This document shows, piece after piece, positions 5,035 through 23,998 of a DNA stretch of 43,685 bases (within the stretch, counting starts at the first letter, position 1; every line of letters starts with the position of its first letter). The stretch is from Anaeroplasma sp. (lineage in GTDB: Bacteria > Bacillota_I > Bacilli_A > Acholeplasmatales > Anaeroplasmataceae), in assembly GCA_022768655.1 (NCBI GenBank), contig JALEQD010000107.1, positions 1 to 43,685 of the forward strand, in the 5' to 3' direction. The position numbers were made by a program, and so were the translations under genes. A model generated the notes under the pieces. It worked only from the letters and a program-made list of their open reading frames with translations. It searched no databases and was not told the DNA's origin.

Positions 5035-7734
5035 TTACTTTACTAATAAAGAAACCTTTTCTAAATTGCTTAATAAGCCTGTATATGGACTAATATCCTG
5101 ATTTAATGTGCTTTCATCAATTTTATTTGCATTATAAACATATAAATCATCACGTTGATATGTTGGAAGCTCTATTGCAAGCTGCATAACCAAATCTAAG
5201 CATTGACTATAAATACTAGCTCTTTGTACTTGATCTGTAGTTTCTCTACCCTGATCAATTAAATCAGATAATTCTACTAAAAGCTCATATTCTTCTGCAT
5301 ACTTAACTGGATTTGCTTTAATAGCATCATATCCCCAGTTTTTAACTGATGTTGCTGTTGAATCCATATGATATACCTGATACATGTCTGGGTCAATTGT
5401 TGCACTCCATGCTGCAGCCCAAACTGTTAATGCACCAGTTGATAGCTTCTTTAGTGCATTTGCATCTGTAGATGTTGTAATTTCAAATCCACATTTATTT
5501 AATATAGCACCAGCACTTGATAATGCTTGATATGCAGGGTGATCTGTAGTTTCACCAGCAATAGTAAATGTCATTTTTAATTTCTCAGAGCCCTTTGTAT
5601 AAATACCATTACCATCTTTTGTAAATCCAGCAGATTCAACAAGTCCAGTAATAAATTCTATTTGCTCATCAACAGTAAATTTTTCTCCTGCCTTTTTACC
5701 CTTTGCCTCTACAAATGCCTGATAATCAGGATTAACTAAAGATAAATCAGCTGGTATTTCACCACCAATAAATGGATAATAGCTTGTTGCATTGCTTAAT
5801 GCAGTAGATTTTTTATATACCCAGCTTGTTAATGACATAGAACGATACAACGCTTGAGCAGTACCCTTATAATATGAAACAGTATCTTGAGTATTAATTG
5901 AATGCATAATAGCCTGTCTAACCTTCATAGATGTTACCTTTGATGCATTAATACCTATGTAACCATAACCATTTGTTTCACTTGTAGCATAAGAAATACC
6001 TTTTGATGTTTTAGTTTTTAATTCATCAATTGTTTCCTGCTTAGCATTTGGTTGAACATAATCTAATTCACCAGTATATAAGCTATTAAGCATATTATTA
6101 GCATTTGAAACCTGATATCTAACCATTTTAATAATAGGTGAACCTAATAGATAGTAAGGATTTCTTTCATAATATAATACGTTATTATCAAAGAATTCAC
6201 CTGATGATGGATTAATTCCACCAGATGATTTTGCAGCTTGATATGGACCTGCCCCTACAGGAACACCAATTTTACTTTCCATTTTAATAACATTTGATTG
6301 GAAGCTTTGTGATGCATATTCAACACCAAAATTTTCAACAAAATCAAATTTTTTTATATGCTCCTCATCTGAATAATAATACATTGGAGCAACACTAAAT
6401 GAGAAATTATAGATTGCCTTTGGATCTACATTGTTAATAGTAACACTTAATACCTCATAAGAATCACTTAAAAGATTACCAGCTTCATCATAGCTTGCTT
6501 TAGCATATTCTTTTCCATTAACAGTGACTGATTCTTCCATATTAGCAAATTTAATTCCAGAAATATTTTTATATTTTCTATCATTATTTCCGCTATGGAA
6601 AAATTCTTCCATTGCTAAATTAGTTAAATATTCTCTTAAATCAGTAGCAGTTGCCCAATATGATACAATTTGAACAATCTTATTAGGTACCATATCAGCC
6701 AATACTTTCTCAATAGCCATCTCTTTAGTATAATTTTTAAGCTTAAGTACATCATTTTCTAAATCTGAATAAAGCTTTCCATCCTTCTTTACCCAATATA
6801 AATATCCTTCAGCATATAAGAATGCCTCAACATCTGTAGTTAATAAATTTTCATATTTCTTACCCTTTGAATCAGTAAATGAAATATCCTTATATGTATC
6901 TACATTGTTATTATAATCATTAGATAATTCTTCCTTGAATAGCTCAATAGCCTTATCATAATCAACTAAAACGTTGTTATATTCCTTCTTTTCTGCTTCA
7001 AACTTTTTTAAGGCTTCCTTCTTTTCCTCTTCGGATTTATAATCTCTATCATAATAATCCTCAAGTTCATCAATCATATCAGTAACATATGATTCTAAAT
7101 CTAATCTAAACTCTTCATTAGAAGTATATATTTTATTAGAATTGTCATCAAAAACATCCTCACAAAATGAAATCAATAAATCAATTCTTGTATCAGCTAT
7201 TTCTTCAAATTGATTCATAAATTCATCTTGCTCCTTTGAGCTTGATTCTTGAGTTCTATATTCCTTTAATCCAACAATATCAGTTGAATACATTGTAGTT
7301 GAACCAGTGTATGCTGGGTCTAAAAACTCATACATGTTAAATATTACATCTTTTATAGTAAGAGCACTACCATTAGAAAATTTCACATTATTTTTCAAAA
7401 CAAAATAATATGTAGTTTGTAAATCTACATCCTTTTTAGTACCAGTAGTAACCTCTTCATATTCCTTAACAACTGTTGCATATTCATCACCACAAACAAT
7501 ATCACCATTCTTATCATTTGTTAGCATACCAAGCTGTGTTAAGCCAATCGCATTACTATCACTACCTGAAGTAGAATAAAATGGATTAAATACTCCATCA
7601 AATGCCTCTGATGATAAAATTAATGGGGTATTCTCGTTATCATATTGCTTACTTTTTCCACCACATGAGGCAAGGGTGATAATTAAAAGAATAGATAATG
7701 ATAAACCAAATATTTTCTTTTTTAAATTATTCAT
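5035..7734 (-). CDS. oppA: Oversized oligopeptide-binding lipoprotein OppA
   Basis: This is the extracytoplasmic peptide-binding subunit (SBP_bac_5 family). It has a signal peptide with lipobox LASC (Cys24), followed by family-like segments (VKFSNGSALTIKDV near residue 118; the AARxY-like and NANNMLNSLYTGELDYV blocks in the C-terminal half). At 899 residues it is far longer than the usual 530-600. The extra material is a highly charged, largely helical insertion at about residues 162-390, including a Lys/Glu-rich probable coiled coil near 225-270, between the two lobes' conserved segments. The reading frame is intact. GAGGTGA precedes the ATG. It starts two bases after the stop of the upstream lipoprotein gene. 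Confidence 0.9.
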   Translation of the reverse strand: MNNLKKKIFGLSLSILLIITLASCGGKSKQYDNENTPLILSSEAFDGVFNPFYSTSGSDSNAIGLTQLGMLTNDKNGDIVCGDEYATVVKEYEEVTTGTKKDVDLQTTYYFVLKNNVKFSNGSALTIKDVIFNMYEFLDPAYTGSTTMYSTDIVGLKEYRTQESSSKEQDEFMNQFEEIADTRIDLLISFCEDVFDDNSNKIYTSNEEFRLDLESYVTDMIDELEDYYDRDYKSEEEKKEALKKFEAEKKEYNNVLVDYDKAIELFKEELSNDYNNNVDTYKDISFTDSKGKKYENLLTTDVEAFLYAEGYLYWVKKDGKLYSDLENDVLKLKNYTKEMAIEKVLADMVPNKIVQIVSYWATATDLREYLTNLAMEEFFHSGNNDRKYKNISGIKFANMEESVTVNGKEYAKASYDEAGNLLSDSYEVLSVTINNVDPKAIYNFSFSVAPMYYYSDEEHIKKFDFVENFGVEYASQSFQSNVIKMESKIGVPVGAGPYQAAKSSGGINPSSGEFFDNNVLYYERNPYYLLGSPIIKMVRYQVSNANNMLNSLYTGELDYVQPNAKQETIDELKTKTSKGISYATSETNGYGYIGINASKVTSMKVRQAIMHSINTQDTVSYYKGTAQALYRSMSLTSWVYKKSTALSNATSYYPFIGGEIPADLSLVNPDYQAFVEAKGKKAGEKFTVDEQIEFITGLVESAGFTKDGNGIYTKGSEKLKMTFTIAGETTDHPAYQALSSAGAILNKCGFEITTSTDANALKKLSTGALTVWAAAWSATIDPDMYQVYHMDSTATSVKNWGYDAIKANPVKYAEEYELLVELSDLIDQGRETTDQVQRASIYSQCLDLVMQLAIELPTYQRDDLYVYNANKIDESTLNQDISPYTGLLSNLEKVSLLVK

Positions 7735-9502: not shown

Positions 9503-9527
9503 AAAAAAAGAGCTAAAAGGCTCTTTT
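9503..9527 (-). terminator. Rho-independent terminator ending the redox/VWA operon
   Basis: The arms are AAAAGAGC (9506-9513) and GCTCTTTT (9520-9527) with a 6-base loop, followed on the minus strand by a run of seven U (9503-9509). It stands 14 bases beyond the stop of the 248-aa lipoprotein gene and separates that operon from the opp operon. Confidence 0.88.
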
Positions 9528-9541
9528 CTTTTAGAAATTAA

Positions 9542-10288
9542 TTATTTTTTTATTACTGTAAATACAAAATTTGCACTGATTTCTTCCTTTGTTTTAATAG
9601 AAAAAACAAATGTTTTATTTTCTGCTACCTCTTCTTGAGAAACTACTAATTCAAACTTAAAGTTTTTAGCATTTCCGTCATCCTCACTATATTTCTTTTG
9701 ATATTCAGGATTAGGAAGCTGTCCATAATAGCTAATGTATGGATCATTTGTTTCATCAGCATATGATTCAAATACATAAGTTCCTGCCTCTGTTGGCGTA
9801 ATAACATAATATCTTGCTGTCTTATCTGCAGTAATGCTATACATACCAGTTTTTATAACATATGGAGAAGTAATTTTACCATCTCCTGATTCAATACTAT
9901 TTAGCTTTGTAAGCTTAATAGTTGAAATCTTATTTTGATCATTTTGTATAACCTCAAATGGATTATATCCATATCCCTCAGGTGTTTTTAAAACATGAAC
10001 ATTGTAATCAACACCCTTATCATAGTCAGTCAAAATGGCAACTCCATTATCATCAACCTTTACAGGCAGCTTACATACCTTTTCACACCATTGAACCTGT
10101 ACATTCTTAGCAGGTGTTCCATCTGGCATTAAAACTGTAACCTTTAATCCATCAACATCTACTTGATTTCCTCCATTAGGAGTTTCATTTTGATTTGGAT
10201 CCTCTGGTTTTTCATTATTTCCACATGAAGCCAAACTAAATGATAAAAATAATGCTAAAGCTAAAAAACATAATTTAATTTTTTTCAT
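9542..10288 (-). CDS. Lipoprotein, shortest of three operon paralogues
   Basis: This 248-residue lipoprotein has lipobox LASC (Cys22), then the linker DPNQNETP shared with two other lipoproteins in the window. Residues about 45-130 look like a prealbumin/Cna-B-type beta-sandwich (DGTPAKNV...DNGVA...YNVHV...PEGYGY). Residues about 140-248 form a second beta domain (RYYVITPTEAGTYVFES...NDPYI) that clearly aligns with a segment of the 579-aa lipoprotein further up the operon. A Cys pair spaced CEKVC lies in the first domain. AAGGAG precedes the ATG. The function is unknown. I infer an extracytoplasmic partner or substrate of the redox proteins next door. Confidence 0.8.
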   Translation of the reverse strand: MKKIKLCFLALALFLSFSLASCGNNEKPEDPNQNETPNGGNQVDVDGLKVTVLMPDGTPAKNVQVQWCEKVCKLPVKVDDNGVAILTDYDKGVDYNVHVLKTPEGYGYNPFEVIQNDQNKISTIKLTKLNSIESGDGKITSPYVIKTGMYSITADKTARYYVITPTEAGTYVFESYADETNDPYISYYGQLPNPEYQKKYSEDDGNAKNFKFELVVSQEEVAENKTFVFSIKTKEEISANFVFTVIKK

Positions 10289-10360: not shown

Positions 10361-12271
10361 TTAGTTATTTAATGCTTTATCAATCTCAGCCTCTAATAAT
10401 TCAATTGTTACAGAACGAAGTGATTTATAGGTAATAACTCCATTTGCATCAATAATAACTGTCATTGGGTAGCTACCATTACCACCTAAAGCTTGATAAT
10501 AGCTTGAATCCTCATCATCATAACCATATTTAATACTACTATATTTTACAAGTGTCTTATTCAAACAATCTAAATAATCAGATTCTTCATAAAGCATACC
10601 ATCATGAATTGCGATTACTTCAATCTTATCCTTATACCTTTCATCATTAGCTACCGCATCAAAATATGGAATTTCTCCAATACATGGTCCACATGTTGTA
10701 TACCAGAAATTAATAATTCTTACTTTACCCTGTGATTTAGATACATTGAAAATACCTTTATTTCCATCCTTATCTAAAAGATTAATATTTTTAGAAATAC
10801 ATACATTCCCAATTTCCTTACCAATTTTCTTTCCTAAAATTGCACAATCTATACTATATAGATCCTCGACAAATGATAAAGAAGAAAAATACATAATTTC
10901 ATCATTCTTATCTAACCATACATAATATGGATAATTATTTCCTCCAAATGATTTTAATAAACCCAATTTATCAGAATCATAAGCGTAAATAAAACCATAT
11001 TCATCATTAATATATGTTTTATTTAATTCTCTATTTGAATAGCTACTAACAGCTATAATATTCAAACTCTTATCCTTAAATGTATTATATATTTCATCAA
11101 ATTGTTCCTTATTATAATTATCGTAAAAGAAAATTAATGTAACATTATCATCACTTACAATATCAAATGAATCAGCTTCATTATAATAATTAACATCTAA
11201 TGTAGTATATTTATCACCTATTGAAACTGTATTTGATTTATTCCAATTAATATTAGAATATAAAATTGCTACAAGTAAAATAATAAGACAAACTGCTGTA
11301 GAAATACCATTAATTAAAAATTTCTTATTTATTTTCTTTTTAGGCTTTTCTATATTATTATCTTCAACTAATTCTGAAGAGCCTTCTTCTTTTATTGAAG
11401 CATTTATTTCTTTTCTAATTAGCTTCCAATCAATTGCTTTAGCATGACATGAATCTATACATTCACCACACATAATACATTCATGATCACCAACATGCTT
11501 AACGTCCATTTTACATTTTGAAACACATGCACCACAATGGTTACACTTATCTTCATTAACCTTAATACCTAAAATAGAAAGCTTATTGAATAATCCATAT
11601 ATCGCTCCAAGTGGACAAAAAAATCTACAGAATATTCTATAAATGAAGATTGAACCAACAATAAATAATACAAGCAATATAAATTTCCATGTGAATAATG
11701 GACCAAGCATATCAAAATAATTTGCATTATTATTATTTGCTAGTAAGCCTAAAGCACCCTCAAATGTACCAATAGGACAAATATATTTACAAAAGCCTGG
11801 AATAGTTTTACCAGAGGTAATTGTAAATATGATTGGCAAATAAATAACAAGGCCAAATAATAATACATATTTAAAATATGATAATACTCTAGTTATTTTA
11901 TTCTTTTTTAGCTTTGGTGTTTTAATCTTATATAATAGCTCTTGGAAAAAGCCCCCTGGACAAAACCATCCACAGATCATTCTTCCAAAGGAAATTGCAT
12001 ATAACAATAAGATACCAACAACATATGTAATTGTTTTATAATTTTTACTTGATAATGCATTTTGTAATGAGCCTAAGGGACAAGCACCAATCGCACCAGG
12101 ACATGAATAGCAATTCATACCAGGCAAACAGATAACCTTACTTTTACCAGTAAAAATATTACCAGTAACATAGCCCATTAAATGTGCATTATATAATAAT
12201 GCTGCATAAAGCTGGATAAGCTTGCGCTTACTAGGCATTATTCTTATAAAAAATGACTTAATTTTACTCAT
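10361..12271 (-). CDS. NapH-like 4Fe-4S membrane protein fused to two thioredoxin-fold domains
   Basis: The N-terminal half (about residues 1-285) resembles NapH/CcoG-type polyferredoxins. It has several membrane helices, CP motifs at their ends (CGWFCPGG, CKYICPIG, CRFFCPLG), and two 4Fe-4S clusters, CNHCGACVSKC (243-253) and CIMCGECIDSC (265-275). A further membrane helix at about 318-338 leads to an extracytoplasmic part. Its first thioredoxin fold (about 355-475) has a cis-Pro (YP, 448) but no CxxC. The second is TlpA-like (about 490-636), with active site CGPC (527-530) and cis-Pro 602. It probably passes electrons from cytoplasmic carriers across the membrane to the thioredoxin domain. 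AGGA lies upstream of the ATG, and the gene starts four bases after the CxxC-tail gene. Confidence 0.85.
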   Translation of the reverse strand: MSKIKSFFIRIMPSKRKLIQLYAALLYNAHLMGYVTGNIFTGKSKVICLPGMNCYSCPGAIGACPLGSLQNALSSKNYKTITYVVGILLLYAISFGRMICGWFCPGGFFQELLYKIKTPKLKKNKITRVLSYFKYVLLFGLVIYLPIIFTITSGKTIPGFCKYICPIGTFEGALGLLANNNNANYFDMLGPLFTWKFILLVLFIVGSIFIYRIFCRFFCPLGAIYGLFNKLSILGIKVNEDKCNHCGACVSKCKMDVKHVGDHECIMCGECIDSCHAKAIDWKLIRKEINASIKEEGSSELVEDNNIEKPKKKINKKFLINGISTAVCLIILLVAILYSNINWNKSNTVSIGDKYTTLDVNYYNEADSFDIVSDDNVTLIFFYDNYNKEQFDEIYNTFKDKSLNIIAVSSYSNRELNKTYINDEYGFIYAYDSDKLGLLKSFGGNNYPYYVWLDKNDEIMYFSSLSFVEDLYSIDCAILGKKIGKEIGNVCISKNINLLDKDGNKGIFNVSKSQGKVRIINFWYTTCGPCIGEIPYFDAVANDERYKDKIEVIAIHDGMLYEESDYLDCLNKTLVKYSSIKYGYDDEDSSYYQALGGNGSYPMTVIIDANGVITYKSLRSVTIELLEAEIDKALNN

Positions 12272-12275
12272 AATC

Positions 12276-13046
12276 TTATCCTAGCCCTATACATTCTGAA
12301 CATATTTTAGCTGCCTTTAAAAATACATCATTAGCTCCACCGATTACACCACCAACTATAACCATAATAACCGCAGCTACAAGGATACTATATTTAATAA
12401 TGTTAATAGCTTTTTCATTTTTCTTTGGAGCAACATTACAATTTTTAGAATCTATAATTTTTTTTGCTAAATCACATGATGCCTTAGCATTATAATCTTC
12501 ATATATTTTAGCAATAATAAATGCAAAAAATGAAATAATTATTAAAGGAGTAACATAAATAAATAATTTATTACACTGTTCTAATGCATTTCCTGTTGAA
12601 ATGAAATGCTTAGTATTAAACATGTATAAAAATGCAATAACAATACATACTAAAGAAATTAGTGTGGCTACAAAATAAGCATAATATCTCTTATTTCCCA
12701 ATTTAATTAATTCTTTATAATCATCTGTATTTTTATTTTCCTCTGGTATATTGTGCATTATTGTTTTTAATTTAGCTAAATTTTCCTTTTTAGGAAGCTT
12801 TTTATCCTCTAAATTATATTTATATGATAATACACCACCGACAATAACAAATAAAATTAATAAGATTATAACAATTAATATATCTAAAATAGCCTTACCA
12901 GCTAATTCTCTTGTAAAAATAGGAATTTCATTTTTACGACCATAATATATTCTTAAAATTTGAATAATAAATAATATTGCAGTTAAAAAGATTTGGAATG
13001 ATATAATCCCCCAGGTTAATCTTTTAACTAATTTTTCATTACTCAT
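12276..13046 (-). CDS. Multi-span membrane protein with C-terminal CxxC tail (CD1871A-like)
   Basis: This 256-residue protein has about five membrane segments (near residues 13-30, 53-75, 123-143, 163-180 and 220-240). It ends in KAAKICSECIGLG, with Cys249 and Cys252. That ending matches my memory of the short 'CD1871A family CXXC motif-containing' proteins of clostridia, which are encoded between a TlpA-type thioredoxin and a 4Fe-4S membrane protein. The gene order here is the same. Those proteins are normally only about 40-50 residues, so this looks like the same tail on a much larger membrane protein. GGGGAG precedes the ATG. The likely role is a thiol relay between ferredoxin-like and thioredoxin-like partners; this is inference from motif and context. 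Confidence 0.78.
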   Translation of the reverse strand: MSNEKLVKRLTWGIISFQIFLTAILFIIQILRIYYGRKNEIPIFTRELAGKAILDILIVIILLILFVIVGGVLSYKYNLEDKKLPKKENLAKLKTIMHNIPEENKNTDDYKELIKLGNKRYYAYFVATLISLVCIVIAFLYMFNTKHFISTGNALEQCNKLFIYVTPLIIISFFAFIIAKIYEDYNAKASCDLAKKIIDSKNCNVAPKKNEKAINIIKYSILVAAVIMVIVGGVIGGANDVFLKAAKICSECIGLG

Positions 13047-13062
13047 AATATCACTCCCCTAG

Positions 13063-13097
13063 TTAAATCCCAAATCATTGTTTGATTTGGGATTTAA
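13063..13097 (-). other. Perfect 15-bp intercistronic hairpin
   Basis: The arms TTAAATCCCAAATCA (13063-13077) and its exact complement (13083-13097) flank a 5-base loop. It fills the gap between the TlpA-type lipoprotein stop and the ribosome site of the CxxC-tail gene. No U-run follows on the minus strand, where the sequence continues CTAGGGGAG. An ordinary terminator is therefore less likely than an RNA-stability, processing or translation-control element. Confidence 0.7.
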
Positions 13098-13104
13098 TTA
13101 TGTC

Positions 13105-15888
13105 TTAAATACTTCTAACGTAATAGCAAAGCTTTAGCCAAGAATATGTTATACCTTCAAATGTATACTTATCCATTAAAAGCTGTAGCATTTCAGCTAA
13201 ATCCTTATCAACCTTAATTAATCCATAGAATTGATTTGTTTCATCTTCGGCTTCAATAATTTTTGTATCTAAATATTCCTGCATCTTTTCAGTCATATCA
13301 GTATTTTCAGTTCCTTCAATTGCATTTCCAAATTCATCCTTTGTGAAATCAAATGCACCATTATTGACTAAATCAACCATGTTTACTGAATTAAAGATAC
13401 CAGTCAAATATGCAACATCTAAATATACAAATGCATCAGTTGCTGGTTGACCATTAAATACCGGATGATAATATTTATCAGTTGATAATATAACATCAAT
13501 TACCTTATTTGGAAGAATATCACCAGTTAAATCATCATTTGCTGTAGTAAATGATGTATAAGCACAAACATTTAATATTTCTAATGTTTCATTTTCATCC
13601 TTAACCTTTTCAATAACAAATTTTAATTCACCTGTATCAGCAACATTCCAGAAGCATGGAAGAATGTAATATTCCTTTCCAGCCTCAAGACGTAAATATG
13701 TGAAGAAATTAATATTTGTTATTTCACTACCATTTTTAAGATTAATATATGTTTCTCTAAATTCAACTGATAAAGAGTCAACAGTTTTCATTTCTCCATC
13801 AGGGAAAATAATGAAGCAATCTGTTTCCTTTTCAGCAAGACCATAAATCTTATATACACCAGATGTTTCAGGAACAAACTTATTATATAAGCCTCTTGGA
13901 ACAATAGCTCTATCATATGTAACAGTATTTTCACCCTCTGTAGCTACATATGAGCTAAATGGAGCAAGACCCTTAATTGGATCACCAGGAATAGTATCCT
14001 GTCCTTCTACACCGTATTGATCAACATATACACATAATTCTAACCATTGATTATCAAATTCAACATCACCAATTTCATTTGTAATATCAACTAATATATC
14101 CTTTAATTCTCTTGTTACAGGTGTTAAGCCTGAAGTGGCTAAATCTGTTAAATTGAAATATGAATTAGATGCATAATTGAAATATTGCAATAATATTTCA
14201 GAACGCATATTTTCTTCAGTATCAAGGAATGTTAATTTATCTGCTGCATAATATTCATAAATAGAGTGCTCAGCAAACTTTGTATAACCATCAAGTAGAT
14301 TTGCTAAAACAAGCTTATCTGTACCCTTAATGTAATAATAGCCATCTGTTTCATTGAATTCTACCTCAGCATAATTTTCATATTGTAAAATTTCTGGGTC
14401 AACTAGTCCAGTAGCACAATCTCTAATTATGTAAGTAGCCTCATTAACCTCTGAAACATTAACAAATCTAACATTTTTAATATATACAGTATCATCACCA
14501 TCAAAGCCACTAGTATCTTTCATATAGCATAATGCTATTTCAACCTCTTCATCCTCGCCAGCAACATAAATGTATTTAGTTTCAAAGCCATTAGTAATAC
14601 CTGAAATTAAACCAATTCTTCTATTATCCTTTAAAAAATATAGACAGTCTGCTGATTCAGTAGATGATTTATAATCAAATGCTAAAACTGTATTAGCTTT
14701 GATAGAAACATTCATATATAAAATAGAATATGAATTATTAATCTTTATATTTGAAGGCTTAATACATTTTTCACCATCTATTTCATCAACAACCCAAGGC
14801 CAATTATATTTTGCATCCTCTTCCTTTGTTTCTGTCTTATATGTTACAGTTGTACCATTTTGATTTGCAGCTTCAGAAATTTTATCATCACCTGGATATT
14901 CTGTTGTAGGTAAAGCAATTTCTTCAGATTCATACTTAGTTTGATAATCATTACCTAAGAATTCTCCAAAAGTACTTGTCCACTTAGAAACAGTAGTAAT
15001 AGCACCATCTTCCATATAAGCAATTACACCAAATCTATCAATAAATATGCTTGTTGGGAATGCATTAATAGAAAATGCTTGCATCATACCTATTTCTTGA
15101 TCATCACGAACACAAGGGAATGTAAGATTATTTGTTCTTTTAAATTCCTTAATATCTGCCATTGTATCTTGGCTTGAAGTTTGATCACCAGGATTGATTG
15201 CTACAACCTCAACCTTTTGATCCTTATAAGCCTTATATGCTTCTTCAAGATACGGGAATTCTGTAATACACCATGAGCACTCAGAATACCAGAAATTTAG
15301 AACAACTAAATCATTTTCCTCAAGTAATTTAGATAGCTTAATAGTATTTCCATCAGAATCAATATATTCAAAATCATACATTGAATCTCCTAAGCTATAT
15401 TTATGACCCTCAGGCATTTTAGATGAAATTAAATGCTGTGTTAATTTAACCTCAGAAACTAAATTACTACCTGTAGCATCTGTATAAATTTTAGCTTCAT
15501 CCTCTAATTGATAGCCATCATCATATTCTACATTAACCTCATAAATATCCTTTTTAACATTAAAATCCGCATATCCATTAACATCAGTGTAGCTTTCCTT
15601 TACAACATTACCACCCTTTGATAATGAAACATATAGATTCTTTAATGGCTTACCACTAACTGCAGTAACATGAACACGATATGTTACATTTTCTTCAGTG
15701 TCTTGGCCACCATTATTGTTATTGTTATTATTGTTATTGTTGTTATTGTTTCCACTATCTCCACCATTGCCTGGAGTTTCATTTTGATTTGGATCATCAG
15801 CTGGCTTGTCATCATTACAAGCTGCTAAAGTAAAGGTAACTCCAAAAAACAAAGCAAATAAAGATAATAACTTTAAAAATTTTTTCAT
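13105..15888 (-). CDS. Large lipoprotein with TlpA-type thioredoxin domain
   Basis: This 927-residue surface lipoprotein has lipobox LAAC (Cys24), the DPNQNETPG linker and a run of 13 Asn (47-59). A Cna-B/prealbumin-like domain follows (about 68-150). Next is a TlpA/AhpC-type redoxin domain (about 165-300) with NFWYSECSWC (CxxC at 204-207) and cis-Pro 278. The remaining 600 residues are beta-rich. They include a carbohydrate-binding-like segment (about 340-480) and two copies of a block of the pattern V-x-x-(E/D)-L-x-(D/E)-x-L ... W-L-x-L-C-x-Y-V, one mid-protein and one at the C-terminus. It starts 17 bases after the 579-aa lipoprotein gene with GGAGGAG. It probably reduces or isomerises disulfides outside the membrane, fed by the two downstream gene products. 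Confidence 0.85.
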   Translation of the reverse strand: MKKFLKLLSLFALFFGVTFTLAACNDDKPADDPNQNETPGNGGDSGNNNNNNNNNNNNNGGQDTEENVTYRVHVTAVSGKPLKNLYVSLSKGGNVVKESYTDVNGYADFNVKKDIYEVNVEYDDGYQLEDEAKIYTDATGSNLVSEVKLTQHLISSKMPEGHKYSLGDSMYDFEYIDSDGNTIKLSKLLEENDLVVLNFWYSECSWCITEFPYLEEAYKAYKDQKVEVVAINPGDQTSSQDTMADIKEFKRTNNLTFPCVRDDQEIGMMQAFSINAFPTSIFIDRFGVIAYMEDGAITTVSKWTSTFGEFLGNDYQTKYESEEIALPTTEYPGDDKISEAANQNGTTVTYKTETKEEDAKYNWPWVVDEIDGEKCIKPSNIKINNSYSILYMNVSIKANTVLAFDYKSSTESADCLYFLKDNRRIGLISGITNGFETKYIYVAGEDEEVEIALCYMKDTSGFDGDDTVYIKNVRFVNVSEVNEATYIIRDCATGLVDPEILQYENYAEVEFNETDGYYYIKGTDKLVLANLLDGYTKFAEHSIYEYYAADKLTFLDTEENMRSEILLQYFNYASNSYFNLTDLATSGLTPVTRELKDILVDITNEIGDVEFDNQWLELCVYVDQYGVEGQDTIPGDPIKGLAPFSSYVATEGENTVTYDRAIVPRGLYNKFVPETSGVYKIYGLAEKETDCFIIFPDGEMKTVDSLSVEFRETYINLKNGSEITNINFFTYLRLEAGKEYYILPCFWNVADTGELKFVIEKVKDENETLEILNVCAYTSFTTANDDLTGDILPNKVIDVILSTDKYYHPVFNGQPATDAFVYLDVAYLTGIFNSVNMVDLVNNGAFDFTKDEFGNAIEGTENTDMTEKMQEYLDTKIIEAEDETNQFYGLIKVDKDLAEMLQLLMDKYTFEGITYSWLKLCYYVRSI
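15712..15750 (-). repeat. Asn-codon microsatellite (13 codons)
   Basis: This is a run of AAT/AAC codons encoding 13 consecutive Asn in the linker of the TlpA-type lipoprotein. A trinucleotide tract like this can change length by slippage without shifting the frame. Confidence 0.9.
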
Positions 15889-15905: not shown

Positions 15906-17645
15906 TTAACTATAAAATCCACATGCGAATAACCATTGATCCTCTTCTGTTGCAAAAACATTATCTTTTTCACACCAGCCTATACCATCAAAGAAATAAG
16001 ACGCGCTATTACTTAGCTTCTGTAAAAAATCCTTTAATTCCTTTGTGACATAGCAAACACCATCGCTATTACACATATCTGTATATTCTGCTTCAATAAA
16101 ACGTTTATAATTTTCCTTACCAAAAAGTCTTAATTGAGCATTACCAGGATCCTCAATGTGATTTAAGCCACCGTCAAAAAAGACTGGTGCTTTTGTTATT
16201 TTCGCACATACGATAGGATCAGTTGAAGGATTATCAATTTCTCCAATTCTAAAATGATAATAGCCATCGCCTTTATAATAATACATTCTATTTCCATTTA
16301 ATACAAGTCTATTATTTACTTTAAACTGACTATATTTCGAAAAATCAATATATGTTTTAGAGCTATCTGGTGTATTTATTGTACCAACCCTAACATATTC
16401 ACCATTAGGATCCTCAATATATTTTCCATTTTCTAATCTATATCTTATTCTAATATATTGATTATCTTTTTCATTTTCAGGCTTGCCAGAAATGTAAGCA
16501 TTCATTCCACCAATACCATGTAATGAGCCACCAGCATTATCTACACAGGTATAAATTGCATTAAAATATTCAGAAATAAGACTACCACTAGATTCAGGGT
16601 ATCTATTTCCTATTTTTACATAATTATAGGCTAAAGACTCATCCTCTAAATTAACTAGCTTACCATTATCATCAACCTCATAGATAAGCATTCCATTATT
16701 ATCTCTTTTATAATAAACATCGTTTGCTAAAACTACTGTTATCTCTTCATGCTCCATCTCATAAAATGATTTATAAATAATTCTAAAATAAACAGTGACA
16801 GGATAGCTATTATCCTTGGTTTTAGCCCTTATACCAAAAGCAAATACATTTCCAATTTCTTCTTCTGAAACATTAACCTCATATAAGAAATTCTTTGTAT
16901 ATGCTCCTTTTTTAGTAGTACCACCATCATCCTTACTTTCAGCAAAAAACTTTGAAGCTGAGGTACCATTATAAATATCAACAATAGGATTTATTATATC
17001 ATCATTAACATCAACAATTGATTCAATAATATATACACCAGGACTGTTTGGAATAAATTGGTAATAAACTGTCCCCTTTTCTTGGGCATTCACATATTTA
17101 CTTATGCTAGCTTGATAAGCATAGGCCTCACCAACATTATTTTTATCCTTAATGGTAATATTTTCAATCTTAAAAATATTACCATATATATCAGTACCCT
17201 TACCCTTTGGCTTATTAATCTTCATCATTTCAATTGAAGCCTCAGGATTATCACTTGTTACAATAGTCGCATTTGGATCATATGTATAACCTGTTGGGCA
17301 TTTAGAAAGATGAACATTATATTCTCCATCTAAATTATTAGTTTTTGCTATACCATCCTTTACTAATGCCTTAACCTCTTGATTTCGGTTTGTCCAAACA
17401 ACATAAATTTCTTCGCTTTCGCTTATAGGCATAACGCCACCATTATACATTATTGTAATAATAAAATCCTTTTTTTCTACAATAGGATTATCATCACCAG
17501 TATTACCACTATTGTTTTCATCACCACTAGTGGGATCATCAATAATAGTTCCACCACCATTATTAACATCAGTTACACTTCCACAGGATGCAAGACAAAA
17601 AACCAAAAAAATAGATATTAACATTGAAAATATTGTTTTTTTCAT
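15906..17645 (-). CDS. Lipoprotein paralogous to its two operon neighbours
   Basis: This 579-residue lipoprotein has lipobox LASC (Cys21) and a Gly/Asn/Asp-rich linker. Residues about 60-145 form a Cna-B-like domain (EYNVHLSKCPTGYTYDP). A second beta domain (about 160-300; YYQFIPNSPGVYIIES, KNFLYEVNVSEEEI) aligns with the 248-aa lipoprotein. The C-terminus carries the YVTKELKDFLQKL...W...LFACGFYS block that also occurs twice in the 927-aa protein. The gene overlaps the end of the VWA gene by ATGA (17642-17645), so the surface lipoproteins are translationally coupled to the VWA/MoxR part of the operon. No catalytic motif was seen. A substrate, scaffold or ligand-binding role is inferred. Confidence 0.82.
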   Translation of the reverse strand: MKKTIFSMLISIFLVFCLASCGSVTDVNNGGGTIIDDPTSGDENNSGNTGDDNPIVEKKDFIITIMYNGGVMPISESEEIYVVWTNRNQEVKALVKDGIAKTNNLDGEYNVHLSKCPTGYTYDPNATIVTSDNPEASIEMMKINKPKGKGTDIYGNIFKIENITIKDKNNVGEAYAYQASISKYVNAQEKGTVYYQFIPNSPGVYIIESIVDVNDDIINPIVDIYNGTSASKFFAESKDDGGTTKKGAYTKNFLYEVNVSEEEIGNVFAFGIRAKTKDNSYPVTVYFRIIYKSFYEMEHEEITVVLANDVYYKRDNNGMLIYEVDDNGKLVNLEDESLAYNYVKIGNRYPESSGSLISEYFNAIYTCVDNAGGSLHGIGGMNAYISGKPENEKDNQYIRIRYRLENGKYIEDPNGEYVRVGTINTPDSSKTYIDFSKYSQFKVNNRLVLNGNRMYYYKGDGYYHFRIGEIDNPSTDPIVCAKITKAPVFFDGGLNHIEDPGNAQLRLFGKENYKRFIEAEYTDMCNSDGVCYVTKELKDFLQKLSNSASYFFDGIGWCEKDNVFATEEDQWLFACGFYS

Positions 17646-20287
17646 CTTTTCATCCCTTTACTATTTTTTTTAAATAAACTGACAATATCCTGCCATCTAA
17701 GCTTTCTAATAATTACATCACAAATAAATAATACAACACAAATAATCATAAATAATGGCATAAATTCATATGTATAAAGTTGTAAATCCATTCCATCATT
17801 ATTGATTGAAAGCTTTCCATCCTCTGAAACCTTACCATTATGATTAACCATTGAATATAAATTAGATGGATCATATTTTTGGAATTCATTATATTCCTTA
17901 TTATAAGAAATACATAAATTCTTTGTTTCTATAAATTCTATATTTCCTTGGCTATATTTTAAATTAATAACATATTTTCCATTTAATGATGTATCTATTG
18001 TTACAAAATAATTCATCGAATCAAAAGCCATTTCATATTTGGCTTCATTATTATTTGGATCAACAACAGTTAATTCCATCTTTGCCTTATCTGTAGCAAC
18101 AGGCGCATTTATAATTACATCAGTTTTATTTCCATTTTGTTCTAAATTGAATATAAATGGTGAATATACCTGAAGCTTTGGCATATTAACATCTATAACA
18201 TTTGATAGAATTGAATGACCAACACTATCATCATTTCGCCAAGATTGCATTGCATTTCCTGTAATGCTTGATGCTAGTGATGAAACAAAACCATTTCCAT
18301 AACTCCAAGTTGAATATAATGGATAGCTAGTGCTTTTTTCATAAACATCAATAATTGATGAAGCAGTAGGCTTTAAAATACAAGTGAAGAATTCACTAAT
18401 ATTTTCTGGCTTTCCTGAAATTTTATCTACTAATTCATCCTTTGTCTTTACAATACTAACTGAAAAATCACCATATTTATGATTTTCAGTAATTTTATCA
18501 GCTATAGTTGTTAAAATCAAATTCTTTGCGCTTTCCCTATCATAAACCTGATAATAATTACCATTTCCATTTGAAGCAATAGCTTTTAACAAAGAATTTT
18601 CAGAATCAGATTCTGTATTAGCAGTATAAATAACACTAACATGAACATTAGCCTCAGCAAGCTTTGTTGCTGTTTCTGTTGATTTATCCTCATCTAATGA
18701 ATAAGCTCTACCATCTGATATAAGTATTGCTTCTTTTTTATAATAATTTAATTTTTCAACAAGACTTAATGTTCTACTTAATCCAGCAGAAATTGATGTA
18801 GCTTGCTTTGCTTCTAAATTCATTATTTCCTTTTTAGCAAGCTCTTTATTTGTAGGAGTCATTTTATCAATATTAAAAACAATCTCAACATCTGCATAAA
18901 AAGCAACAACTAATAAATCATAATTTTCATCAAGCATATCAATAATTGCACAAGCAGATTCCTTAGCCATAATAAAATGACTTATTTGATTCATACTTTT
19001 AGAAATATCTAATATTAATGTATATAACTTTCTATTATTATCATTATTATCAAATTTTACAGGTAGAATAGAACCAAATTCTATTAATATTTCATTATCC
19101 TCTCCATTTTGAATATATGTATTTCCTAAGGTAACTAAGCTTTTACCAAACTCTGAAACAGCAATTTCTAAATTTGATACAAACGCATCAGCATTATTTA
19201 GCTTGCTAACATCAGTATTAGAAATAACTATTTCATCAAATGTACATAATTCCTCTAAAAGATATGGAACATCTTTATTACCTACATAATAGGTAACATC
19301 ATATTCAAATGAATCATAAATTGAATCAAATTCTTCCTTATCTGTTTCTTCCTCAGAAATAAATAATACCTTTACATTTCCTAAAACCTCTTGAGTAAAT
19401 AAATAATTATTATTATATTTACTATTATCATATACCTCATTATCTTCAGTATAATCTGATAATTCAGCCTTATAAGTAAATGAACCTTCACTTTCAGTAT
19501 CAGTTTTCATTGTAACAGTATTCATTCCTTCATTTAATGCTTCTACTGTTTCACTAAATAGTAAATCATCCTTATACAATCTAACAACAGCCTTAGAAGC
19601 TGTATTAGATTCAATAACAATATCTACAAGGCTTTCACTATCCACGTATGCTTTATCATCAAATCTTACATCTGATATTTGAATTTCCTTGTCATCTGGC
19701 TTTAAATTATTATCTAAATAGATTGCATCTATAAATATTTCTTTTGATTCTAAATCATCTGCAAGTCCAGAGATAACTTGATTATTTGTATCATAGCCAT
19801 CTGTAATTAATACAATTCTTTTTATTACATTATCATTAAACAATGATGCTGTAAAATTTAATGCATCAAAAATATTAGTTTCAGATGTATCAACCTTTGT
19901 ATTTTTAACCGATACCAAATCAAATCCAAGCTCAACTAAAATCTCATGATCCTTACCAAAGGCAACAACTCCAAGCTTACTATTTCTTGGAAGATTATCC
20001 TTTAAATCCTCAATATATTCATCAATCTTTTCATAATTATCTATTGAAGAATAGCTAACATCTGCCATAACATAAACATTAGTTTCAGTTACAACTCTTT
20101 CAAGCTTCATACCTGCTAAGCATAGTGATACTAAAACAATTATTACAGCATGTAAAACTAAAGATCCAACATTATGAAAATTGAAGCTTTCCTTCTTTAT
20201 TGATACAAAAAATGAAATAAATAATAATACTAATAAAACCAATCCTATGATTAATAAATATGGATTATCGAAGCTGATATTGCTCAT
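17642..20287 (-). CDS. Membrane protein with two von Willebrand A domains and an amidotransferase-like linker
   Basis: In this 881-residue protein, two N-terminal helices (about 10-30 and 42-60) precede VWA domain 1 with MIDAS DVSYS (76-80) and LITDGYD. An unassigned beta segment is followed by a region resembling a class I glutamine amidotransferase fold without its catalytic residues (about 303-400). VWA domain 2 has DISKS (427-431) and ISDG. A beta domain and one C-terminal helix (about 845-865) complete it. The architecture is that of large VWA proteins encoded with MoxR and DUF58 genes. Both metal-binding sites look complete. It overlaps the preceding VWA gene by 23 bases and the following lipoprotein gene by four. 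It probably acts outside the membrane, with MoxR remodelling it from inside. Confidence 0.85.
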   Translation of the reverse strand: MSNISFDNPYLLIIGLVLLVLLFISFFVSIKKESFNFHNVGSLVLHAVIIVLVSLCLAGMKLERVVTETNVYVMADVSYSSIDNYEKIDEYIEDLKDNLPRNSKLGVVAFGKDHEILVELGFDLVSVKNTKVDTSETNIFDALNFTASLFNDNVIKRIVLITDGYDTNNQVISGLADDLESKEIFIDAIYLDNNLKPDDKEIQISDVRFDDKAYVDSESLVDIVIESNTASKAVVRLYKDDLLFSETVEALNEGMNTVTMKTDTESEGSFTYKAELSDYTEDNEVYDNSKYNNNYLFTQEVLGNVKVLFISEEETDKEEFDSIYDSFEYDVTYYVGNKDVPYLLEELCTFDEIVISNTDVSKLNNADAFVSNLEIAVSEFGKSLVTLGNTYIQNGEDNEILIEFGSILPVKFDNNDNNRKLYTLILDISKSMNQISHFIMAKESACAIIDMLDENYDLLVVAFYADVEIVFNIDKMTPTNKELAKKEIMNLEAKQATSISAGLSRTLSLVEKLNYYKKEAILISDGRAYSLDEDKSTETATKLAEANVHVSVIYTANTESDSENSLLKAIASNGNGNYYQVYDRESAKNLILTTIADKITENHKYGDFSVSIVKTKDELVDKISGKPENISEFFTCILKPTASSIIDVYEKSTSYPLYSTWSYGNGFVSSLASSITGNAMQSWRNDDSVGHSILSNVIDVNMPKLQVYSPFIFNLEQNGNKTDVIINAPVATDKAKMELTVVDPNNNEAKYEMAFDSMNYFVTIDTSLNGKYVINLKYSQGNIEFIETKNLCISYNKEYNEFQKYDPSNLYSMVNHNGKVSEDGKLSINNDGMDLQLYTYEFMPLFMIICVVLFICDVIIRKLRWQDIVSLFKKNSKGMKR

Positions 20288-22130
20288 AACAATACACCGC
20301 CCAATCAGCTACAAATAGTAGCGCAAGTAATACATAAAAAATAATTAAATTATCATATGTACCATTTAAACTATCATTTGATGCTTGTCCATTTATTACA
20401 ACATTTAAAGCATCAATTTCATTTTCAGAAAGTGGATAGCTACTATAAATATTAAATTCTTTATCATAATCCTGATAAGAAACTATTATTTTATAGCTAC
20501 CAATTTCTTGAAGCTTATAATTAACTACAGAAGATGAAACACCCAAATTCTTTACATTTTTTAATGGAGTTTCAATTCTAATGTTTTTGACTGCTGATGT
20601 GGTATTTATTGTGATTTCATCTCCACAAACATAATTACTATTTTCTATTATTTCTGGGAATGAATAATCCAATAAATTTCTAAATAATACTAAATAATTA
20701 TACGTAAGTGGAAGATTAGTATTATGTAAATTGAATGCAAATACTATTTCAGTATTTCCATATGTATTTGTACCACTAAATACTACTGGACTACCATTAG
20801 TAGTCATTAGCGTAGTAAATTGTCTATATTGTCCATATCGATTATATTCCTTAACATACATATCAATATTACTCATACCATCAGTAAGCTTCTTATAAAT
20901 ACTTGTGCTACCTTGAGCAAGCTCAAGCTTTGCACCTGAGATAAGTGAAATATTTTCTTTAAAGCTAATTCCAGAATCAACTGGACTTCCCTTTTGATCA
21001 AATAACCAAACACTTCCATCATTTGGCATAGAATTAGGAATATATGAATCAAAGACATATAATCCATAGCCTCTATTTTCATTGTAATCCTTTGTTGCTA
21101 AAACATCGATATTATTAACACCAAAGGCCTTCATTATATTATTTAAATAAAATGGATAATCACTTACAATAAGTGCTTTATATTCATGTTCTTTGACAAT
21201 ATTATAAACAATATATTGATTATCTAAGGCTAAAGCATCCTCATTTTCGATTCTTACCTCTAGATAATCAAAATTAGCATTATTTGATTCAAATGTAATA
21301 TCTTTTGAATCATTATCACTAAAATCTATTTCCTTAGTTTCAATTAATTGATTATCACTATATAATGATACATTAATCTTATTATTAGCACCATTTGAAT
21401 TTACATTTGTACTTACAAGTATAGCCTCACTTGAAATTAGATTATTTGAATCATCATATACAGCAGGAATAACTTTATATTCAACATTTGTAACACTATA
21501 ATTAATTACATCACTTCCAACATTAATAAGCTCAATATTTGAGGTATTAACATTTTTATCAGTAATTAAATAAGTTTTAACTGAAGGATTATTATCAAAA
21601 TACTTTTGTGCATATGAAATTGCTGAAGTATAATTATTTGATAAATATGCACTGCTTTGCTTATTTAATAATTCAATTGCTGATTTTTTATCCTCATTTT
21701 TTTCATAAACAATTGTTGTAGAATTACCAACATAAACAAGTGTATATATACTTCCATCATATGAATTTTCAATAACATTAGCTATTTCAAGCTTTGCTTT
21801 ATCAAATCTTGATGATTCACCATCTATTATGTTCATACTTGCAGATCCATCTAAAATGAAGCAATATTCCTTTGCACCATTTTTTACGATAAATTTCGGA
21901 TGAGCAAGCAATATGCTTAAAATTACTACCATTAAGCATTGTAAAATAAGTGAAATTAATCCTCTAATTTTAGAGATAGGCTTTCTATTTTTCAAAAATC
22001 TTTCACTTAAATGCCATATATAATTAGATGTAATAGTTTGTTCAGTATACTTATTCTTAATAATATAAATAATAATAAGAATTGGTACACCTATTAAGCC
22101 TAATAAGGCTAAAGGATAAACAAATGTCAT
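20265..22130 (-). CDS. BatA-type membrane protein with VWA domain
   Basis: The N-terminus (about residues 1-80) matches the BatA N-terminal two-helix unit (YPLALLGLIGVPILIIIY ... LQCLMVVILSILLAHPKF). A VWA domain with MIDAS DGSAS (94-98) follows, then a long beta-rich extracytoplasmic part and one helix near the C-terminus (about 594-612). Bat proteins were named for aerotolerance in Bacteroides; in other bacteria the same arrangement accompanies MoxR-dependent assembly of surface or metal-containing proteins. The ATG overlaps the DUF58 stop by ATGA and has AAGGAGGT upstream. The length of 621 residues is in the family range. The exact partner is unknown. Confidence 0.85.
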   Translation of the reverse strand: MTFVYPLALLGLIGVPILIIIYIIKNKYTEQTITSNYIWHLSERFLKNRKPISKIRGLISLILQCLMVVILSILLAHPKFIVKNGAKEYCFILDGSASMNIIDGESSRFDKAKLEIANVIENSYDGSIYTLVYVGNSTTIVYEKNEDKKSAIELLNKQSSAYLSNNYTSAISYAQKYFDNNPSVKTYLITDKNVNTSNIELINVGSDVINYSVTNVEYKVIPAVYDDSNNLISSEAILVSTNVNSNGANNKINVSLYSDNQLIETKEIDFSDNDSKDITFESNNANFDYLEVRIENEDALALDNQYIVYNIVKEHEYKALIVSDYPFYLNNIMKAFGVNNIDVLATKDYNENRGYGLYVFDSYIPNSMPNDGSVWLFDQKGSPVDSGISFKENISLISGAKLELAQGSTSIYKKLTDGMSNIDMYVKEYNRYGQYRQFTTLMTTNGSPVVFSGTNTYGNTEIVFAFNLHNTNLPLTYNYLVLFRNLLDYSFPEIIENSNYVCGDEITINTTSAVKNIRIETPLKNVKNLGVSSSVVNYKLQEIGSYKIIVSYQDYDKEFNIYSSYPLSENEIDALNVVINGQASNDSLNGTYDNLIIFYVLLALLFVADWAVYCYEQYQLR

Positions 22131-23008
22131 TTTAATACCTCCTTACTTGGAAGCATAGAAATAAATAAATCATTCATTTTTACATCCTCAGCTACCATGA
22201 TGTATTTAGCACCCCTAGATAAGCAAAAGCTTTCTAAATCATCTTGAATAAATTTAACTGCCTTTCTATAGGCTGACATAACATCCTTATTGATGTTTTT
22301 ACGATAAAAATCATTTACATTTTCTGAATCAAAGAAATGAACCTTTCCTCTAACTACAGGATTTAATTCCTCATTTGATAATACCTGCATACATAAAACA
22401 TCTCTTTTTTTACTAACAAGATAATCAATGCCATCTTTGAAATTATCCTCAGTTAAAAAATCTGAAATAATAACAGATAGTCCATCACCATATCCAACAT
22501 TAGCATTTCTTATTGCTTCAGAAAATCTAAAGCTTCCATCAAAAACAATATCATTTATTTTATTTATGGATGTGTAGAATTGATCCTTACCTACCATATT
22601 AACAACAACTTCATATACAATATCATTTTGTATGTAGTAGATTGATACTTTGTCCATACAAGCTAAAGAAATATATGCAAATGCAGCTGCAATTTGTAAA
22701 GCCTTATCAGCTTTTTTAGTATTAAGCTCCATAGATCTTGAAGCATCTATATATATTTTAGTATTTAATCTTCTTTCATCAAGATATTGCTTAAGATATA
22801 AATTTTCACTTCTTGCATATTGATTCCAATCAATTTTTGAAATGTCATCTCCTGGCAAATAATTCCTATAGTCTGCAAACTCACATGAAGAACCAAAGCT
22901 TTTACTTTGATGCATACCACCGAATAAACCAGCAACATTATTTTTTATAATCATTTCAAGGGTTTCAATGTCCTGCAAGAATTCTTCATTAATTGCATAC
23001 TTTCCCAT
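22127..23008 (-). CDS. DUF58 family protein (MoxR partner)
   Basis: This 293-residue soluble protein carries the DUF58 signature, Y-R-x-Y-x-P-G-D-D-x-x-x-I-D-W at about residues 48-62, followed by a VWA-like fold (IYIDASRSMEL). DUF58 proteins sit directly downstream of moxR in most MoxR operons and are thought to act with it. The gene begins six bases after the moxR stop; AAAGGA lies upstream of the ATG. Its end overlaps the BatA-type gene. The segment SFGSSCEFADYRNYL is the typical lead-in to the motif. Function beyond partnership with MoxR is not known for the family. Confidence 0.9.
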   Translation of the reverse strand: MGKYAINEEFLQDIETLEMIIKNNVAGLFGGMHQSKSFGSSCEFADYRNYLPGDDISKIDWNQYARSENLYLKQYLDERRLNTKIYIDASRSMELNTKKADKALQIAAAFAYISLACMDKVSIYYIQNDIVYEVVVNMVGKDQFYTSINKINDIVFDGSFRFSEAIRNANVGYGDGLSVIISDFLTEDNFKDGIDYLVSKKRDVLCMQVLSNEELNPVVRGKVHFFDSENVNDFYRKNINKDVMSAYRKAVKFIQDDLESFCLSRGAKYIMVAEDVKMNDLFISMLPSKEVLK

Positions 23009-23014
23009 AAAAAA

Positions 23015-23998
23015 CTAATCCTTTTTACATTCCTTTAATAATAATCTAATAACATCATCTACAGATAAATGTTCATTAATTGCATTAAAATTAACCTTCA
23101 TTCTATGACGTAATACTGGATATGCTAAAGCGTCAATATCCTCAATTGAAACATTGTAATTTCCGTTCATTAACGCTCTAACCTTCGCAGCAGTAATCAA
23201 TGCTTGTCCAGCTCTTGGAGAAACACCATGCTTAATATACTTAATTGCAGTATTAGAAGTACCAGGAAGCTCAGGATGAGTTTTAGAAACTAAATTCATT
23301 GCATATTCTAATACATCATCAATAACTGGAACACTTTTTGCTAATTCTCTCATTTCAAGAATAGTTGCACCATCAACTACAGAATTTGCTGTTTCATCCA
23401 TAGTAATTTGTGTCATTGTGACAATATCCTTTAATTCCTTAACAGTTGGAAATTCCATTAATAATTTAAACATAAAGCGGTCCATCTGTGCTTCTGGAAG
23501 AGGATAAGTACCATCCTGCTCTATCGGATTTTGTGTTGCAAGCACAAAGAATGGCTCAGCCATTTTATATGTTTCATTTGATACAGTAACCTTATGCTCC
23601 TGCATTACCTCAAGCATCGCAGATTGTGTTTTTGGTGTGGCACGGTTAATTTCATCTGCTAAAATTAAATTTGCAAAAATTGGTCCACGGTTAAATACCA
23701 TGTTCATTTTTCCATCTGCATCTTTTTCAATTATATTTGTACCTGTAACATCAGAAGGCATTAAATCTGGTGTAAACTGAATTCTAGAAAATGGTAAATT
23801 TAAAACCTTACCTAATGTTCTAACTAAACGAGTCTTTCCAACTCCAGGAATACCCTCAAGTAATACATTACCACCAGAAATTATTGCAATAATAACATTA
23901 TTAACAATATCCTCCTGACCAACGATATCCTTGCTTATTTCTTCTTTTACTTTATTAATCGTTTCACTAAACTTTTTTACTTGTTCTAAATTATCCAT
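23015..23998 (-). CDS. MoxR-type AAA+ ATPase
   Basis: This 327-residue cytoplasmic ATPase has Walker A GIPGVGKT (49-56), the MoxR block FSRIQFTPDLMPSDVTG, Walker B LILADEIN (111-118), and the sensor region VLATQNPIEQDGTYPLPEAQMDRF. The C-terminal lid contains the SPRAGQAL motif. MoxR ATPases act as chaperones that mature or insert cofactors into partner proteins, usually with VWA-domain proteins as adaptors. AAGGAG precedes the ATG, six bases after the stop of the upstream 572-aa gene. All catalytic residues are present. Together with DUF58 and VWA genes this forms the standard module, here extended by redox genes. Confidence 0.95.
   Translation of the reverse strand: MDNLEQVKKFSETINKVKEEISKDIVGQEDIVNNVIIAIISGGNVLLEGIPGVGKTRLVRTLGKVLNLPFSRIQFTPDLMPSDVTGTNIIEKDADGKMNMVFNRGPIFANLILADEINRATPKTQSAMLEVMQEHKVTVSNETYKMAEPFFVLATQNPIEQDGTYPLPEAQMDRFMFKLLMEFPTVKELKDIVTMTQITMDETANSVVDGATILEMRELAKSVPVIDDVLEYAMNLVSKTHPELPGTSNTAIKYIKHGVSPRAGQALITAAKVRALMNGNYNVSIEDIDALAYPVLRHRMKVNFNAINEHLSVDDVIRLLLKECKKD

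Follow-up and report, generated by a model that had tools for sequence, protein, structure and literature searches.

We propose that a fusion gene and its neighbour in the 43,685-nucleotide stretch of Anaeroplasma sp. DNA analysed here (the window) encode a ferredoxin-driven transmembrane thiol reductase, which would fill the role of DsbD/CcdA but be built from iron-sulphur clusters; judging from sequences and predicted structures, we put the probability of this reading at roughly 60%. The fusion gene encodes, in this order, a NapH-like polyferredoxin, a fifth transmembrane helix (TM5), a degenerate thioredoxin fold, and a TlpA-type thioredoxin fold, and the adjoining gene encodes a membrane protein with a C-terminal CxEC tail (from here on, the partner). 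The features referred to in the text are as follows.

10361-12271, - strand: fusion gene, 636 amino acids, ATG start (open reading frame list, Pfam, AlphaFold2)
11417-12271, - strand: polyferredoxin membrane unit, residues 1-285, four predicted helices
12080-12130, - strand: outer four-cysteine motif C48-x5-C54-x2-C57-x6-C64 (CLPGMNCYSCPGAIGAC)
11957-11974, - strand: first inner CX3CP motif, CGWFCP, C100/C104, NapH-like
11774-11794, - strand: outer FCKYICP motif, C161/C165
11612-11632, - strand: second inner CX3CP motif, FCRFFCP, C215/C219, NapH-like
11447-11545, - strand: two cytoplasmic ferredoxin-type [4Fe-4S] motifs, C243/246/249/253 and C265/268/271/275
11255-11326, - strand: TM5, residues 316-339, which takes the chain outside
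10838-11209, - strand: degenerate thioredoxin fold, residues 355-478, without CxxC, first cysteine C476, cis-proline P448
10364-10822, - strand: active TlpA-type thioredoxin fold, residues 484-636, with the extra conserved cysteine C491
10682-10693, - strand: CGPC active site, residues 527-530, C527 and C530
12276-13046, - strand: partner gene, five-helix membrane protein, 256 amino acids, C terminus outside
12279-12302, - strand: CSECIGLG tail of the partner, CD1871A-type (NF040920)
9542-10288, - strand: lipoprotein, 248 amino acids, with a C-x3-C pair, last gene ahead of a hairpin
13105-15888, - strand: large lipoprotein, 927 amino acids, with a second TlpA-type domain (CSWC), a conserved neighbour in related clusters
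14995-15390, - strand: TlpA-type domain of the 927-residue lipoprotein

The preliminary description had joined a NapH/CcoG-like iron-sulphur unit to two extracytoplasmic thioredoxin folds in one reading frame, and the frame itself proved exact in its coordinates, strand, start codon, and length. On the N-terminal side, Pfam matches to Fer4_5 (E 9.5e-17) and Fer4/Fer4_7, together with two CX3CP and two [4Fe-4S] motifs, bear out a NapH-like unit. At the other end, Redoxin matched residues 504-626 (E 3.6e-14), and the C-terminal fold scored 53.2 bits against a gathering score of 26.6 for Redoxin and 43.8 against 26 for AhpC-TSA, with CGPC found at 527-530 as had been described and with P602 as its cis-proline. 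The solved structures closest by fold to the whole fusion model are ResA-type, Etrx1/2, CcmG, and DipZ proteins; AlphaFold2 modelled the membrane part with moderate confidence, the pLDDT falling below 50 at residues 28-51. The active fold also carries C491 (codon 10799-10801), an extracytoplasmic cysteine 36 residues ahead of CGPC that 14 of the 15 fully read fused proteins have in common, and the separate TlpA proteins of two loci (L032 and L052) have no cysteine at this position.

Loop charge places both ferredoxin motifs inside and the outer motifs, the partner tail, and TlpA outside: across 43 sequences, the mean charge is +6.1 in the loop after the first inner motif and +2.6 and +0.5 in the outer loops. 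The C-terminal half is thus extracytoplasmic, as previously described. We note that 18 cysteines are common to all 19 aligned polyferredoxins; eight belong to the ferredoxin motifs, and the membrane part holds the other ten, four in the inner CX3CP motifs and six outside. The 5-2-6 spacing of the outer motif (C-x5-C-x2-C-x6-C) is identical in 48 of 48 sequences. To our knowledge, NapH is without the outer cysteine motifs, which is consistent with the low score of the fusion protein against the NapH model (TIGR02163; 89.7 bits against a cut-off of 213, a partial match). Against CcoG (TIGR02745) the protein scored 17.1 bits, for a cut-off of 316.7. Hence, of the label NapH/CcoG-like, the NapH-like module stands, but the label is too modest for a protein with six invariant outer cysteines that lies far under both cut-offs.

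NapH-like proteins, including those with flavin arms that have been surveyed (PMC8238504) and the FMN-bearing PceC and NosR, share with the present protein the four-helix module and two inner CX3CP motifs (PMC8238504, PMC5928378), and NapH and NosR also share the two [4Fe-4S] motifs. The module described here differs from them in its six extra outer cysteines, in bearing a thiol rather than a flavin arm, and in having the partner with its CxEC tail. The role of CX3CP motifs is unsettled (PMC5928378); because iron for no more than two clusters was found in NosR, disulfides instead of cluster ligands may be present at these motifs (PMC5928378), which counts against the electron path proposed below.

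The partner gene ends 4 bases upstream of the fusion gene, and its last codons (GGG CTA GGA TAA) overlap the presumed ribosome-binding site of the latter. Like members of the CD1871A family of CXXC proteins (NF040920), the partner ends in a helix followed by C-x-E-C-x-G-x-G; against the family cut-off of 32 it scored 27.9 bits on the whole protein and 32.1 bits in the genome search. Most Clostridia members that we saw are short proteins of 40-60 amino acids with one helix, whereas the partner is of the long, five-helix form. When 18 partner relatives were aligned, they were constant only at the end, in K, A, C, E, C, G, and G and in one glycine of the last helix. In the long form, the charges put the tail on the outer side, and the short forms point in the same direction with a small charge difference. 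In the intergenic stretch that separates the partner gene from the large lipoprotein gene (13046-13105, - strand), we noted by eye an inverted repeat, AAATCCCAAATCA...TGATTTGGGATTT, which possibly acts as an attenuator or terminator.

We next consider how the module is distributed among 392 genomes drawn from the phylum of the window and 243 Clostridia genomes, the assemblies being largely draft. NF040920 tail genes were found in 10 of the 392 phylum genomes and the polyferredoxin subfamily (defined by E<1e-100) in eight, and all eight lie among the ten, with the two genes adjacent; if kinship is ignored, the chance of such co-occurrence is about 3e-15. In one of the two remaining tail genomes (G371), a broken polyferredoxin remnant is present at 7315-7551 of locus L054, and in the other (G397) no intact polyferredoxin was seen at the locus read (L057); these loci (in L054, 7215-7551) are decaying copies of the module. 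At both, the tail match lies near ABC-transporter and two-component genes. Among Clostridia, 38 of the 243 genomes have the tail, and a polyferredoxin adjoins it in all 30 loci read (29 by the strict motif and L107 by CX3CP count), many of which also hold a TlpA-type lipoprotein. Outside these 30 loci, the tail gene adjoins a polyferredoxin in nearly all others. Two-component regulator genes adjoin the separate-gene module at L052, L089, L093, and L098, which suggests that the module is induced by a sensed stress.

The same fusion occurs elsewhere: seven relatives match the two-fold layout of the window's protein, and others have one fold or separate genes. Counting that of the window, 15 proteins read over all or almost all of their length combine polyferredoxin and thioredoxin in one chain, as does that of L108; L109 is cut by the end of its locus. 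In a tree of 48 polyferredoxins, the fused forms are nested within the separate-gene forms, and the two-fold proteins together with that of G255 form one starred group of nine, within which branch support is moderate. G255 keeps a short helix stub and has TlpA as a separate lipoprotein. The likely order of events, read from these sequences, is that separate genes preceded the TlpA fusion and that the second fold was gained afterwards, with a loss in G255.

The first of the two folds lacks an active site. Residues 339-475 hold no cysteine, and, of two stretches matched by Thioredoxin_8, the better (390-459) falls within this fold, although the Pfam score of the isolated domain is under the cut-off. 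In the AlphaFold2 model of the full protein, the first fold repeats the strand and helix order of the second (pLDDT about 74-92), and residues 339-476 modelled alone also gave a thioredoxin fold (pLDDT 79.5, pTM 0.77). With this isolated model, Foldseek against the PDB gave a best E of 2.4e-07 and, as best matches, ResA-type 4nmu, CcmG 2b1k, and peroxiredoxins, with TMq up to about 0.7; among the matches listed were thioredoxins, ResA/CcmG/DsbE-type oxidoreductases, peroxiredoxins or Bcp proteins, and a few unnamed structures. Further, hhalign aligned the degenerate fold with the TlpA fold (probability 97.7, E 2.4e-12), leaving a six-column gap where TCGPC stands and keeping the YP motifs in register. 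A PDB profile search with the degenerate domain returned chance matches only, unlike the clear Foldseek and hhalign results. The claim that this is a thioredoxin fold without CxxC therefore holds by three methods that concur, and so does the cis-proline ascribed to it, P448, where six of eight relatives have proline and two have serine or lysine. Neither outcome that would have refuted the preliminary description, a first domain of some other fold or a cytoplasmic C-terminal half, was thus obtained from structure prediction or loop charge.

From the gene layout, the folds, the charge topology, the invariant cysteines, the adjoining partner, and the pyruvate:ferredoxin oxidoreductase (PFOR) encoded in the window's genome (a metagenome-assembled genome, 94.6% complete), we infer the following path. 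Reduced ferredoxin made by PFOR would pass electrons to the two cytoplasmic [4Fe-4S] clusters, from which they would move to the inner pair of CX3CP motifs and on to the outer cysteine set. This set, C48/C54/C57/C64 with C161/C165, probably forms a further cluster beside a dithiol and would reduce the C-terminal CSEC dithiol of the partner, which in turn would reduce the CGPC of the fused TlpA domain. The latter would then reduce disulfides of exported proteins or lipoproteins, and the neighbouring 927-residue lipoprotein, with its own TlpA domain, may also act as an acceptor. The fold without CxxC would serve as a folded spacer for the reach of the active domain. The low potential of ferredoxin favours flow in the reductive direction.

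The preliminary description had implied a complete path on one chain, from the clusters to the TlpA thiol. Were the clusters to reduce the fused TlpA directly, the CxEC-tail protein would be left as an assembly factor or a non-redox subunit; the recurrent fusion of a thioredoxin to the polyferredoxin speaks for this reading, but we consider it improbable, given that the tail adjoins the polyferredoxin with both cysteines invariant irrespective of TlpA fusion, that fused forms still have it, and that a protein with an assembly role only would have no need to retain two cysteines. Because the tail gene accompanies the polyferredoxin even in fused forms, we favour over the single chain a path that probably runs through the partner, with an electron wire made up of two or three components (ferredoxin, clusters, CxEC tail, and TlpA). 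The description had further suggested that the degenerate fold is a docking site, for a client or partner, which would be compatible with the proposed reductase. Catalytically dead thioredoxin folds are binding domains in other proteins, and the fold is kept in eight relatives from several genera, none of which has CxxC there. Set against this, only F382, D432, F442, and Y449 are invariant in these relatives, the mean identity is 28%, below that of every other folded part (the active fold has 38% and the polyferredoxin 70%), and single-fold relatives dispense with the degenerate fold. These findings make docking unlikely as a role, and since the fold is poorly conserved and missing from single-fold relatives, a folded spacer, determining how far the active domain extends, is the simpler reading of the sequences.

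Two further alternatives concern the source and the purpose of the electrons. The module could be a NapH-type quinol dehydrogenase with menaquinol as the donor, as in periplasmic nitrate reductase or organohalide respiration; its two inner CX3CP and two ferredoxin motifs are as in NapH, which it partly matches, and some NapH-like systems in the literature are thought to use quinols. We regard this as very improbable. The NapH score falls well under its cut-off, the neighbours scanned include no terminal reductase, and no quinone pathway was found in the window's genome: a UbiA-family prenyltransferase (PF01040) was over the cut-off in 0 of 10 module genomes of the phylum, in contrast to 14 of 14 controls. 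Hardly more credible is a CcoG-like metal unit, whose outer cysteines would bind copper or iron and whose TlpA would keep the metal site reduced. CcoG has the same membrane module (hence the weak TIGR02745 match), and copper chaperones are substrates of TlpA in other bacteria (PDB 4txo), but the CcoG score is very far from its cut-off, no copper protein was found among the neighbours scanned, and a haem-copper oxidase is unlikely in a genome with no recognisable UbiA. The ferredoxin-driven thiol reductase remains the reading that we prefer.

If the reductase reading is right, the module resembles DsbD/CcdA/ScsB in its proposed task of supplying a TlpA/ResA/Etrx-type thioredoxin with reducing power from across the membrane, but it would do so through iron-sulphur clusters rather than pairs of membrane cysteines, and the window's genome has no DsbD_TM homology. 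Its thioredoxin has the fold, the CxxC, and the cis-proline of TlpA, ResA, and Etrx and differs from them in being fused to its presumed donor, with an additional, inactive copy of the fold ahead of it. DsbD/CcdA (DsbD_TM, PF02683) is absent from 19 of 20 module genomes, with none recognisable in that of the window, and VKOR was found in 0 of 10. Absence of DsbD/CcdA alone does not argue for replacement, because it is also missing in 361 of the 392 phylum genomes; likewise, we set aside a complementary distribution with CcdA as uninformative (0 of 8 module genomes as compared with 31 of 392 overall). A wider proposal, for which we see slightly less than an even chance, is that the module is a distinct system for the export of thiol-reducing power, in which an outer cluster or dithiol would turn single electrons from ferredoxin into the two-electron CxEC dithiol and which would take the place of DsbD/CcdA in many anaerobic Bacillota. 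Taken in that wider sense, the chemistry would be comparable with that of ferredoxin:thioredoxin reductase, but with the module acting across the membrane.

A module of this kind has been seen before but left unexplained. A preprint of November 2025 (bioRxiv 2025.11.06.686285, PMC12637426) describes an operon of gut bacteria, chiefly Clostridia, whose three products are a 4Fe-4S protein, TlpA, and a CxxC protein; Blautia wexlerae, Anaerostipes hadrus, and Phascolarctobacterium faecium are among the species that have it. According to the preprint, the operon had not been characterised before and is associated with immune-related adverse events in melanoma therapy; the passages covered contain no mechanism, topology, or cysteine analysis. 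Very probably, the operon represents the present module in its separate-gene form, matched by description rather than by sequence. The genes are separate there; in the window, TlpA is part of the polyferredoxin chain, a dead fold has been inserted, and the CxxC protein has five helices, so that the window's protein is a new fused, two-fold variant. A study of Clostridium ljungdahlii describes an operon for three proteins, one of the DsbD superfamily, one that is NapH-like, and one that is periplasmic (PMC5640608). For Clostridioides difficile CD1871, the literature gives a place under a conjugative transposon and the name ABC transporter permease, neither of which is informative on function. 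In the literature searched, outside which most subscription papers lie, we found no mention of CD1871A or of a polyferredoxin together with TlpA.

The genes for the partner, the fusion protein, and the 248-residue lipoprotein are followed by a terminator-like hairpin (9503-9530), and from this and the gene order we take the three as a unit, in which the lipoprotein is a possible client of the thiol module. It shares a domain with the lipoprotein encoded at 15906-17645 (- strand); the former has WCEKVC, the latter ends in WLFACGFYS, and lipoproteins close to further copies of the module (L058, L029) carry comparable cysteine pairs. A 434-residue lipoprotein of G007, which matched residues 352-634 of the fusion protein, was considered as a free tandem thioredoxin and rejected, as the alignment shows it to have a domain of the 248-residue lipoprotein type and one TlpA fold but no degenerate fold. 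The 927-residue lipoprotein, which has 13 cysteines and belongs to a conserved family of large lipoproteins, gave no convincing Pfam match outside its TlpA domain; relatives of it occur in the clusters of G034, G029, G035, G335, and G287 and, shortened, in that of G256. Further along, genes of the MoxR, DUF58, BatA-type, and VWA kinds (17642-23998, - strand) run unidirectionally towards and into the module. Genes of these kinds, some of them truncated where the stretch read ends, were also found close to the two-fold fusion in G034, G029, G035, and G287, and G007 has them on another contig in the vicinity of a TlpA lipoprotein.

Of the 392 phylum genomes, 361 are without recognisable DsbD/CcdA, and the module may keep exported proteins reduced in such anaerobic bacteria, which lack the usual thiol-reducing pump. 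The fused form is handy for testing this, with presumed donor and acceptor on one chain. The apparent human gut counterpart has been reported to predict which immune side effects arise in melanoma therapy (PMC12637426). If our proposal is true, fermentation, in the form of reduced ferredoxin, would be tied directly to thiol repair at the cell surface, and, going by the tail gene (38 of 243), this would reach about one sixth of the Clostridia species sampled.
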